64,000 nt of DNA from Flagellimonas oceanensis (lineage in GTDB: Bacteria > Bacteroidota > Bacteroidia > Flavobacteriales > Flavobacteriaceae). The stretch's first letter is position 1. Every line of letters begins with the position of its first letter. Below are positions 33,217-36,533 of this stretch, piece by piece. The notes under the pieces are model-generated. The model was not told the origin of the DNA. It worked only from the letters and a program-made list of their open reading frames with translations, and did no database searches. The translations under genes were made by a program, and so were the position numbers. The DNA lies in contig NZ_RZNA01000049.1 in the NCBI RefSeq assembly GCF_003992595.1, positions 1 through 64,000 on the forward strand, in the 5' to 3' direction.

Positions 33217-34683
33217 ATGGGCACTACCGAGGACAAATCCATCTTTTCCAGCTACATAAAAAAAGATGGCCTGTTTGATGAAGTTTTCGATAAAAATGGG
33301 GATGTCAAATCCGTTTACCAGAAGCTTTTGGACTTGTATGGCACACGAACCATTGATGATTATGTCAACTTGAACAACAAAGCTAAATCATCTTTTTTCA
33401 ATCAGGGAATTACTTTTCAGGTATATGGTGATAAGCAAAGTCAGGAAAAGATTTTTCCGTTTGACCTTTTTCCCAGAATCATCTCTACGGATGAATGGGA
33501 AATCATAGAAAAAGGTGCCATCCAACGTAACATTGCCCTCAATCATTTTTTATGGGATGTATACCACGACAAAAAAATTGTCAAAGACAAAGTGGTGCCC
33601 ATAGAGCTTTTGAGTTCATCTCCCAACTATTTGCACCAAATGATGGGGGTTGACCCACCCAATCAAATTTACAACCACATCTCTGGAACGGACATCATTA
33701 AACATTCGGATGGCAATTATTATGTGTTGGAAGATAATATCCGTTGCCCCTCGGGCGTGAGCTATGTTATCTGTAACCGTACTGCGTTAAAGAGAGCTTT
33801 GTTCGGGGTGTTTAACCATTACAAAACACATTCGGTAACCAATTACGCCGAAAACCTCCTGCATCTATTGGAAACTGCAAAACCTCATGGAGTTGATGCA
33901 CCAGTAACCGTTGTAATTACCCCAGGTATGTTCAACTCGGCTTATTATGAACATTCCTATCTGGCCAAGGCCATGGGCGTGGAATTGGTGGAAGGGCGCG
34001 ACCTTTTTGTGGAAAACGATTTTGTCTACATGAAGACTACACAAGGTCCTGTTCGTGTGGATGTCGTATACCGAAGAATTGACGATCTTTTCCTAGACCC
34101 CATGGAATTCAGTCCCGATTCTGCTTTGGGGGTGCCCGGCATTTTCGCTGCGTATCGTAAAGGCAATGTTACCCTTGCAAACGCTCCAGGAACCGGTGTT
34201 GCAGACGATAAGGCCATTTACACCTATATGCCAGACATCATAAAATATTATTTGGACGAAGAGCCCATTCTTAAAAACGTCCATACTTATCATTGTAGTC
34301 GTCCGAAGGAACTGCAGTATGTATTGGATAATATCAAGGACTTGGTCATAAAACCTGTGGACGAGGCTGGCGGATACGGTATTTCCATAGGAAACCGACT
34401 GACCAAGGATGAAATTGAACGGGTAAAGTCTGAGGTTAAGGCCAATCCACGTAAATATGTGGCACAGCCCATTATGTCGCTTTCTGTCCACCCCACTTAT
34501 ATAGATCAGAAAGAATCCTTTGAACAACGTCATGTGGATTTAAGAACCTTTACCGTGCTTGGCAAAGACGAACAATTTGTATTAAAAGGAGGGCTTACCC
34601 GCGTAGCCCTCAAAGAAGGAAATTTAATCGTGAATTCCTCCCAAGGAGGCGGTTCCAAAGATACGTGGGTCCTAAAACAATAA
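33217..34683 (+). CDS. circularly permuted type 2 ATP-grasp protein
   Basis: DUF404/DUF407-type ATP-grasp ligase. Visible family motifs: VLEDNIRCPSGVSYVICNR (about 173), DVVYRRIDDLF, NAPGTGVADDKAIYTYM (about 325), the nucleotide-binding Lys in LVIKPVDEAGGYGI (about 380), and the end motif NSSQGGGSKDTWVL. ATP-grasp enzymes form C-N bonds through acyl-phosphate. The partner genes directly after (alpha-E, transglutaminase) match a widespread module predicted to synthesise or attach a peptide. Cytoplasmic; product unknown. 4 bp separate it from the alpha-E gene. Confidence 0.9.
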   Translation: MGTTEDKSIFSSYIKKDGLFDEVFDKNGDVKSVYQKLLDLYGTRTIDDYVNLNNKAKSSFFNQGITFQVYGDKQSQEKIFPFDLFPRIISTDEWEIIEKGAIQRNIALNHFLWDVYHDKKIVKDKVVPIELLSSSPNYLHQMMGVDPPNQIYNHISGTDIIKHSDGNYYVLEDNIRCPSGVSYVICNRTALKRALFGVFNHYKTHSVTNYAENLLHLLETAKPHGVDAPVTVVITPGMFNSAYYEHSYLAKAMGVELVEGRDLFVENDFVYMKTTQGPVRVDVVYRRIDDLFLDPMEFSPDSALGVPGIFAAYRKGNVTLANAPGTGVADDKAIYTYMPDIIKYYLDEEPILKNVHTYHCSRPKELQYVLDNIKDLVIKPVDEAGGYGISIGNRLTKDEIERVKSEVKANPRKYVAQPIMSLSVHPTYIDQKESFEQRHVDLRTFTVLGKDEQFVLKGGLTRVALKEGNLIVNSSQGGGSKDTWVLKQ

Positions 34684-34687
34684 CTAT

Positions 34688-35635
34688 ATGCTTTCAAGAG
34701 TAGCCAACAACCTATTTTGGATGGGTAGATATATTGAACGTGCAGAACATATTGCCCGTTTTATGAATGTGAATTACTTTGCTTCGTTGGATGCCCCTAA
34801 TCAACTTTCCCAGTCAAGGAATTTTGTTTTGCAGTCCATGTTGTTCATGGTCGGAGACCCTGTTTCGGACATCGATAAGGAATTGAACGAGGAAGAAGTA
34901 CTATATGATTTGGGACTGAATCCAGAAAAACCCTATTCCATTATCAGTAGCATAAAAGTGGCGCGTGAAAACGCCAATAGTTCCCGTGATTTGATATCCA
35001 CTGAGCTTTACGAAAGTTTGAACAAGTTCTATCACTTTGTGATGAACTATCCCACGGAGACCTATAAAAAAACCAACCTTTATGACTTTACCGTCAATAT
35101 AACCGAAATTACTGCGGTGCTGCGGGGTAAAATCCGAGGTACGCTATTGCATGATGAAGTCTATGCCATCATTATGATGGGCGTAAACATTGAAAGGGCC
35201 ATTCAGATTACTCGAATCATCAACACAAAATACAACGATGCCCTCATGGCCAAAGGAAGCTATAAAGATCCTATTGGCAACAGTTATGAATGGACCACCT
35301 TATTAAAATGCGCAGAATCTTATGATATGATGCGCAGATTGTACAAAAAAACACCTAATGGCACCTCTACCTTAGAGTTCTTGTTGTTGAATGGTAAATG
35401 TCCAAGATCGTTCATGAACTGTATCAACCAAGTGCACAAGCATATTTTGGAAATCGACAAAAAGGTAGAATACTCCCAAAGTTCCACGGCATTTTTAGTG
35501 GGGAAAGTAAAGGCAGAATTTCAGTTTAAACAGGTAGACGAAGTTTTGGAGGATATCCAAGGAAACCTGAATATGATCCTTAATAAAATGTTCAAAATTA
35601 GCGAGAGTATGGAGAAAGAATTCTTTAACTACTGA
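34688..35635 (+). CDS. alpha-E domain protein (DUF403)
   Basis: All-helical protein beginning MLSRVANNLFWMGRYIERAE, the diagnostic alpha-E opening (LSRxAxxLxWxGRYxERAE). Further conserved positions are FDYxxx-type helices and ALWL-less C-terminal part. No enzyme active site is known; it is thought to work with the ATP-grasp partner. The start is 4 bp after the ATP-grasp stop, so they are co-translated or at least co-transcribed. 315 residues, normal length. Confidence 0.9.
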   Translation: MLSRVANNLFWMGRYIERAEHIARFMNVNYFASLDAPNQLSQSRNFVLQSMLFMVGDPVSDIDKELNEEEVLYDLGLNPEKPYSIISSIKVARENANSSRDLISTELYESLNKFYHFVMNYPTETYKKTNLYDFTVNITEITAVLRGKIRGTLLHDEVYAIIMMGVNIERAIQITRIINTKYNDALMAKGSYKDPIGNSYEWTTLLKCAESYDMMRRLYKKTPNGTSTLEFLLLNGKCPRSFMNCINQVHKHILEIDKKVEYSQSSTAFLVGKVKAEFQFKQVDEVLEDIQGNLNMILNKMFKISESMEKEFFNY

Positions 35636-35642
35636 TACTTTT

Positions 35643-36533
35643 TTGAGTAACTTGGCCGGATTGAAAATCACTCGAATGCTGTATGAATATGAAATAGATT
35701 ATGATACTCGAAACTCCTATGAAATGGGGCTTAACGAGGCCTTTTGGCAGTTTTTGGTCATCCCGGAAGAGAACGATACACAAGAGCTTACCTATTGGCA
35801 TTTTGAAAACGACCTTGACGAGAAAAACAGCGTTTCCGAAAACGGACTGGGGTTTAAAACCGTACAGGTACGTTCCAAAAAGGAATTGGACCATATCAAA
35901 TTCAATGCACATTTTAAGCTTATCAAAAAAGAAATAAACCCGTTCGATTTTGATTTGCCTTTGGACATAAATGAAGAGCGAAAACTAGTGGACAGCTTGG
36001 ATTTCAGGGTAGATTATGAACCCTATCTCAGAAAGACGAAATTCACACAACTGCTCGAAGAACACAAGTCCATCTACGCCTTTGATCCCAAAAAGTCAAT
36101 TTTTGAAAACTTGACAGAGCTCAATCACTGGGCGTATGGACATCTGTACTTTAAAACTGGGGTTACCGATGTCAACACTTCGCTGGATGAAATCATTGAA
36201 AACCGACACGGGGTCTGTCAGGATTTCACACATTTATTCTGTGCCATAGCCAAACACCATGGGGTTCCAGCAAGATATGTCTCTGGATATTTACATCAAG
36301 GACATGGTTTTTTTGGAGATTCGCAAATGCATGCTTGGGCGGAGGCATTTGTACCCAATGTGGGTTGGATTGGATTTGACCCCACCAACAACGTCTTGGC
36401 CAATCATAATCACATAAAAGTCTGTCACGGAAAGGACTATATCGATTGTGCCCCATTGAAAGGAGTCGTTTATACCTTGGGCAAAAACGAAACTGAATAT
36501 ACCGTACAGGTAAAAGCTTCACAACAACAGTAA
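35643..36533 (+). CDS. transglutaminase-like protease/peptide-transferase of the ATP-grasp cluster
   Basis: An N-terminal Bact_transglu_N beta domain (LKITRMLYEYEIDYDTRN..NEAF) precedes a papain-like core. The triad is complete: Cys in HGVCQDFTHLF (about 184), His in MHAWAEAFVP (about 220) and Asp in WIGFDPTNN (about 236). The start used is TTG 35643, seven bases after the alpha-E stop; TTG 35661 or ATG 35676 are possible but would cut into the conserved first strand. In the predicted peptide system it would cleave or transfer the ligase product. Confidence 0.88.
   Translation: MSNLAGLKITRMLYEYEIDYDTRNSYEMGLNEAFWQFLVIPEENDTQELTYWHFENDLDEKNSVSENGLGFKTVQVRSKKELDHIKFNAHFKLIKKEINPFDFDLPLDINEERKLVDSLDFRVDYEPYLRKTKFTQLLEEHKSIYAFDPKKSIFENLTELNHWAYGHLYFKTGVTDVNTSLDEIIENRHGVCQDFTHLFCAIAKHHGVPARYVSGYLHQGHGFFGDSQMHAWAEAFVPNVGWIGFDPTNNVLANHNHIKVCHGKDYIDCAPLKGVVYTLGKNETEYTVQVKASQQQ

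Follow-up and report, generated by a model that had tools for sequence, protein, structure and literature searches.

A C-terminal glutamine tail, borne by different partners in different lineages, is a candidate substrate of the ATP-grasp/alpha-E/transglutaminase module of Flagellimonas oceanensis

The 64,000-nucleotide stretch of the Flagellimonas oceanensis genome analyzed here (RefSeq assembly GCF_003992595.1, contig NZ_RZNA01000049.1, positions 1 to 64,000; hereafter the window) carries a compact operon encoding, in tight order on the forward strand, a circularly permuted ATP-grasp ligase, an alpha-E protein and a transglutaminase-like protein (Table 1). We know of no substrate for this gene set. 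An earlier note, made from the sequence alone, had described the trio with an intact Cys/His/Asp triad and gaps of 4 and 7 bp. Pfam searches and a check of the catalytic residues (192, 230 and 246 in the listed open reading frame (ORF) with the TTG start) bear out the composition and the triad, and the 4-bp gap between the ligase and alpha-E genes stands. The 7-bp gap between the alpha-E and transglutaminase genes, in contrast, requires the TTG start; since 112 of 120 listed homologues begin at the residue matching the downstream ATG and 105 of the 120 are 283-286 amino acids (aa) long, translation probably starts at this ATG, which leaves a gap of 40 bp. The feature bearing most on the substrate question was missed by that note: the transglutaminase ends in a tail of glutamines (...VQVKASQQQ) located exactly at its C-terminus, and similar tails are found elsewhere on the alpha-E protein and at least once on Anbu, the proteasome-fold PF00227 subunit of Anbu operons.

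Table 1. Coordinates of the trio genes and of the features discussed, as positions in the window
Feature	Position	Strand	Assignment
Circularly permuted type-2 ATP-grasp ligase, 488 aa, glutathione synthetase / glutathionylspermidine synthetase fold	33217..34683	+	CP_ATPgrasp_2 PF14403, E 7e-156 (Pfam)
Alpha-E protein, 315 aa, all-helical model, two homologous halves each with an ER motif (E17-R18, E169-R170)	34688..35635	+	PF04168, E 1.3e-71 (Pfam)
Transglutaminase-like protein, 285 aa from (probable) ATG 35676; listed ORF from TTG 35643	35676..36533	+	Transglut_core PF01841, E 3.5e-21
Transglutaminase catalytic codons	Cys 36216-36218, His 36330-36332, Asp 36378-36380	+	Triad intact
C-terminal glutamine tail Q-Q-Q (CAA CAA CAG), immediately 5' of the stop codon	36522..36530	+	Sequence

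Among the 58 ORFs called in the window, the transglutaminase alone ends in QQ. Among its nearest homologues (the best 120 of 7975 matches), 114 end in at least two glutamines, five in one and one in none, and all 120 have at least two within their last five residues. Across 41 loci of the family, QQ ends are present on 26 of the 41 transglutaminases and on none of 423 other genes (at least 150 aa). Within the genus, 28 of the 29 other alpha-E-positive congeners were taken, and 26 of their 27 complete transglutaminases have at least two terminal glutamines, that of L223 being truncated at a contig end; in the only exception, L219, the alpha-E protein bears the tail instead. The segment preceding the tail diverges strongly between lineages, with the tail retained, and the glutamine run differs between relatives, spanning 2 to 13 residues. 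Tails also occur beyond the Bacteroidota, with 13 glutamines in an Anaerolineae locus and QQ or QQQ ends in Roseateles, Achromobacter, Comamonadaceae, Paraburkholderia, Cellvibrionaceae, a Klebsiella plasmid and Limimaricola; among the loci examined, those of Deinococcus and Tsukamurella and one cyanobacterial locus have no tail.

A related pattern is seen in Pseudomonas-type transglutaminases. Among the best 120 of 7504 matches, 60 have QQ or a longer run at the end, 27 a single terminal glutamine and 33 a different last residue; in 112, the last 12 residues contain three or more glutamines. In the 69 of these tails with more than one glutamine run, glutamine pairs two positions apart number 162, compared to 75.7 (sd 5.4) in shuffles, and neighboring pairs 26, compared to 77.8, defining an alternating QxQxQ arrangement that is absent from window-type tails. 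All 216 transglutaminases with a QQ or weaker glutamine-rich end keep the Cys/His/Asp triad. At the nucleotide level, CAA and CAG are mixed in the 75 tails analyzed: adjacent codons are equal in 126 of 246 cases (51.2%, with 51.5% expected), and only 3 of 45 tails of at least four glutamines are homogeneous in codon. This random-like mixing indicates selection on the protein, not slippage.

The carriers of the tail were compared in 133 nonredundant operons, 93 with a small transglutaminase and 40 without, after leaving out 52 near copies, 26 alpha-E genes without an adjacent ATP-grasp gene, eight operons whose transglutaminase gene is interrupted by a contig end and three whose alpha-E gene is interrupted. 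With a tail defined as at least three glutamines in the last 12 residues (3 of 410 background genes), 87 of the 133 operons bear one on some partner. In the 93 operons with a small transglutaminase, the tail lies on the transglutaminase only in 56, on alpha-E only in 18, on both in none and on neither in 19 (Fisher p 2.4e-9, which ignores descent); where the small transglutaminase is missing, alpha-E is tailed in 11 of 40. Alpha-E proteins from operons with an untailed transglutaminase end, for instance, in ...WSQAQQHQQQQQ (a Chlorobiaceae metagenome-assembled genome, MAG) or ...TQQQQQQQQ (a verrucomicrobial MAG), and adjacent codons in alpha-E tails are equal in 32 of 64 cases. The ATP-grasp ligase is tailed in none of the 133 operons and, by a looser criterion, in one of 216 (L212). 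Of 24 operons whose Anbu gene is complete, two encode an Anbu that reaches the threshold, clearly in L125 and unconvincingly in L178.

Glutamine-rich ends extend to fused ATP-grasp::alpha-E proteins, 14 of 23 of which (near copies included) have at least three glutamines in the last 12 residues. Among the 21 transglutaminases of fusion operons, the end is glutamine-rich in 4 of the 8 whose locus also holds an unfused ligase/alpha-E pair versus 0 of the 13 that lack such a neighbor (p 0.012), a comparison conceived after inspection of the data and in which one of the four, L053, is weak. On a transglutaminase tree inferred with the tail columns removed, tail state requires 12 changes, 9 of them forced by supported branches, versus 46 in shuffles; the numbers of changes required on the ATP-grasp tree are 13 for the transglutaminase tail and 20 for that of alpha-E.

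The three genes behave as a unit. Alpha-E and CP_ATPgrasp_2 are found in the identical 32 of 149 family genomes, and the coupling is therefore not due to chance. Furthermore, 13 of these 32 genomes also encode a protein in which ATP-grasp and alpha-E are fused (about 850 aa; open frames between 852 and 860 aa), which makes it likely that the ligase and alpha-E act as direct partners. In the genus, alpha-E is present in 30 of 71 genomes. All 16 trio-negative congeners examined (of 41) have a metalloprotease gene about 0.2-0.6 kb from the match to prfB, with no trio gene in between, indicating that the trio forms a clean module of 3.3 kb that a genome either has or lacks, and that the flanking metalloprotease is independent of it.

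The 41 family loci include three operon types. In type A, that of the window, a gene that we take from its sequence to be prfB lies downstream in 14 loci, and DUF4953 genes or genes that are presumably L-threonine-aldolase-like lie upstream. Type B comprises 13 loci situated elsewhere, 9 of which (L047, L049, L051, L052, L054, L055, L057, L058 and L060) have a gene of one protein cluster upstream; in L047 this gene encodes an ECF-type sigma factor and is accompanied by two genes without a Pfam match. Eight of the 13 type-B transglutaminases (L047, L049, L050, L051, L052, L054, L057 and L061) present an NSYxxNLE motif, a variable linker and then the glutamine tail, and the other five have variants. 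In type C, as annotated by Pfam in L062, the fused ATP-grasp::alpha-E protein is encoded together with a large DUF2126 amidoligase/transglutaminase protein and a small transglutaminase; in L046, L048, L053 and L056 this operon adjoins a type-A ligase/alpha-E pair lacking its own transglutaminase. In L224, too, an unfused pair lies next to an operon of the fusion type, with a DUF2126-type protein, ATP-grasp::alpha-E and a transglutaminase. The gene set as a whole is found in many bacterial phyla, in a sample that is uneven because it consists of best-scoring matches (one search took the best 80 of at least 588). One sampled contig titled Bifidobacterium breve (L123, CALPQG020000033.1) encodes a trio ligase 60% identical to that of the window and is probably misbinned.

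The earlier note had also presented the trio as standing alone, with no proteasome-like partner in the window, and had suggested a search for a partner N-terminal nucleophile (NTN) hydrolase elsewhere in the genome. The first statement extends to the whole assembly (4.27 Mb, 99.98% complete), which has no match to PF00227 (Anbu, HslV), other NTN-hydrolase families lying outside this search. It does not hold as an oddity of this genome: PF00227 occurs in 2 of the 149 family genomes, both alpha-E-positive, and the remaining 30 of 32 alpha-E-positive genomes also lack it, so that, as far as PF00227 goes, the trio without Anbu is the rule in the family. In a record labelled as Acinetobacter phage (L286, CAKLQH020000004.1), an Anbu operon adjoins rpsF, rpsR, rplI, dnaB and alr, and the sequence resembles a bacterial chromosome. 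PADLOC anti-phage defence models returned no family for any of the three trio proteins at E 0.01. Bact_transglu_N (PF08379) is not reported for the window transglutaminase at E 1e-3; it is present in the L049, L062 and L194 proteins and in the close homologues P0182 and P0233.

The alpha-E protein is the only one of its kind in the assembly. Its AlphaFold2 model has a pLDDT (predicted local distance difference test) of 93.7, and its two halves align to each other by hhalign (probability 99.5, E 3e-22; reversed control, 2.1). The protein thus consists of an internally duplicated unit of about 150 residues, with an ER motif in each copy, and these motifs are invariant columns in a 75-sequence comparison. 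A circularly permuted ATP-grasp domain, an adjacent ER-motif alpha-E and a Cys/His/Asp transglutaminase are all present in the window, as in ATP-grasp/alpha-E/transglutaminase amide-ligase systems, and the trio is, judged by its sequence, an intact, Anbu-independent member of that family, for which ATP-dependent amide-bond formation is predicted.

The ligase model is nearest to 3n6x, followed by glutathione, homoglutathione, YjfC/YgiC and glutathionylspermidine synthetases. These fold relatives form bonds between amines and the carboxylates of peptides or acids, in keeping with the earlier suggestion of a peptide-synthesis or tagging system. Published data on relatives, cited here by PMC number from passages of the respective papers, add to this picture. 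YgiC and YjfC are termed peptidylpolyamine synthetases in work on E-64 (PMC12568646), and the ATP-grasp protein of the Yersinia bercovieri Anbu operon releases phosphate from ATP (PMC6376114). In Pseudomonas putida, PP_2688 (ATP-grasp) and PP_2685 (Anbu) are higher on nitrate than on ammonium (PMC8050072), and PP_2686-PP_2688 are up under nitrogen limitation, with PP_2685 listed at 1.12, 4.81 and 1.45 (PMC7801951). A Burkholderia cenocepacia cluster of ATP-grasp, alpha-E, transglutaminase and large transglutaminase genes belongs to the NtrC/sigma-54 regulon (PMC5491218). In these sources, nitrogen limitation is the best-documented condition, solely in proteobacterial relatives.

A tail conserved at or close to the C-terminus of one or the other partner of the ligase, and never on the ligase in the operon count, is most simply accounted for as the module's own substrate. 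We tentatively propose, as a plausible reading that falls short of probable, that the tail is a built-in peptide substrate on which the ligase acts as charging enzyme and the transglutaminase as editor. The substrate would be encoded in the operon, as the C-terminal glutamine tail of one partner (here the transglutaminase, ...KASQQQ). The ATP-grasp protein, bound to the two-lobed alpha-E, would phosphorylate one of the tail's carboxylates, in the simplest case that of the C-terminus, and the activated carboxylate would be joined to an amine, whether of an amino acid, a polyamine or a target-protein lysine. The transglutaminase would work on the same glutamine tail by transfer, trimming or release, rendering the linkage reversible. 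The position of the tail favors a carboxylate ligase as the enzyme acting on it; the identity and alternation of its residues favor the transglutaminase.

Several observations weigh against this proposal. By the threshold used, 46 of the 133 operons have no tail, even if one of them, L284, was misfiled by an overlap rule that missed a transglutaminase ending in ...RQQQ, and L178 entered as tailed only through its unconvincing Anbu end. In L046, an unfused ligase/alpha-E pair has no tailed small transglutaminase alongside, and in L033 (9182-10036) both the catalytic Cys and His of a transglutaminase ending in EQ are replaced by Ser, the trio being otherwise intact. Mutual exclusion of carriers is not established after correction for the tree: in 11 independent pairs differing in the transglutaminase tail, alpha-E changes in the opposite sense in 2.0 on average and in the same sense in 0.0, too few for a sign test to reach 0.05. 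Of the 120 listed Pseudomonas-type tails, 33 lack a terminal glutamine, and many of the 120 alternate as QxQxQ, so that a free glutamine carboxylate is not strictly required, and side-chain chemistry or strand docking would also fit. The Y. bercovieri ATP-grasp releases phosphate without a partner protein, neither Anbu nor glutamine nor glutamate stimulates it, and no specific interaction emerged from a pull-down that used Anbu as bait (PMC6376114). In that experiment the transglutaminase carried a C-terminal FLAG tag, at the site where many relatives bear the tail, and a change of construct could alter the answer.

Among the alternatives, it is possible, if rather unlikely, that only the transglutaminase uses the tail, with the glutamine side chains as acyl donors in self-crosslinking, amine coupling or deamidation, while ATP-grasp and alpha-E make a separate peptide. 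Glutamine is the classical transglutaminase donor (also in passages of PMC6376114), the alternating Pseudomonas tails of both transglutaminases and alpha-E keep glutamine while other positions vary, and the triad is intact in all 216 transglutaminases with a QQ or weaker glutamine-rich end; this account nevertheless leaves unexplained why the tail is placed at, or a few residues from, the C-terminus, and alpha-E is tailed in loci without a detected transglutaminase (L153 and L280), though one could lie elsewhere in the genome. Somewhat less likely still, the tail could remain unmodified and act as a docking strand, bringing the partner protein to the core formed by ATP-grasp and alpha-E. That no operon counted has it on the ligase, or on both partners at once, would fit such a role, alternation is suggestive of an extended strand, and the NSYxxNLE element precedes the glutamines in most type-B transglutaminases, but a run of such variable length after a strongly divergent segment is unusual for a docking motif. 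We consider it improbable that the product is a free small peptide or peptide adduct built from metabolites, as Iyer and colleagues reportedly predicted, with the tail incidental, which would leave its conservation on different partners unexplained. The fold relatives do make small molecules (glutathione, homoglutathione and E-64 precursors; PMC12568646), and a review table citing a thesis lists an antinematode clone, jj117, that derives from an Ulva australis metagenome and carries genes for ATP-grasp, alpha-E, transglutaminase and protease proteins (PMC7764037). A neutral, slippage-prone CAA/CAG repeat would explain the differences in tail length and is very improbable, being already contradicted by the codon mixing, the absence of QQ ends among the 423 neighbors, the recurrence of such ends on different proteins in several phyla and the Pseudomonas-type tail counts.

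The trio is already known as a kind. From comparative genomics, Iyer and colleagues reportedly predicted in 2009 that ATP-grasp/alpha-E/transglutaminase systems make or attach peptides. The system they described, as represented in papers citing it (PMC5666114, PMC6376114 and PMC3597751), encodes the same three kinds of protein side by side, and the citing passages make no mention of a glutamine tail, the 2009 paper itself being outside that check. The available text of PMC6376114 and PMC5666114 likewise contains no glutamine-rich or polyglutamine tail, the "C-terminal tail" there being that of HslU. As far as this literature was checked, the tail is thus an undescribed feature of the family, and the new element in an otherwise ordinary member. 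The Anbu operons of P. putida (PP_2685-2688) and Y. bercovieri likewise encode ATP-grasp, alpha-E and transglutaminase proteins, and listed Pseudomonas-type transglutaminases share the glutamine-rich end; they differ in that the Flagellimonas genome has no Anbu and that nitrogen control is reported for P. putida. Glutathionylspermidine synthetase/amidase and YgiC/YjfC are related to the ligase in fold only (10-12% identity, 12% to glutathionylspermidine synthetase), and in the trio the corresponding proteins are separate. About 200 residues of RimK, which acts with ribosomal protein S6, and of LysX/ArgX, which act with LysW, align to the ligase, which belongs to a different subfamily. Terminal glutamines serve as substrates of amide-forming enzymes in the glutamine-rich ends of cornified-envelope proteins and in the C-terminal GGQ of Pup, unrelated proteins that provide an analogy only. 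Conserved at the protein level and on different partners by lineage, the tail gives the trio a definite candidate substrate. More broadly, and as a possibility that we regard as rather unlikely, the movable tail might be a genetically encoded primer or carrier, with ATP-grasp/alpha-E extending or conjugating it at the C-terminus of whichever partner bears it in several phyla, at least partly under nitrogen limitation, and the transglutaminase (and Anbu where present) editing the product, a carrier or tagging principle comparable to those of RimK-S6, LysW and Pup.

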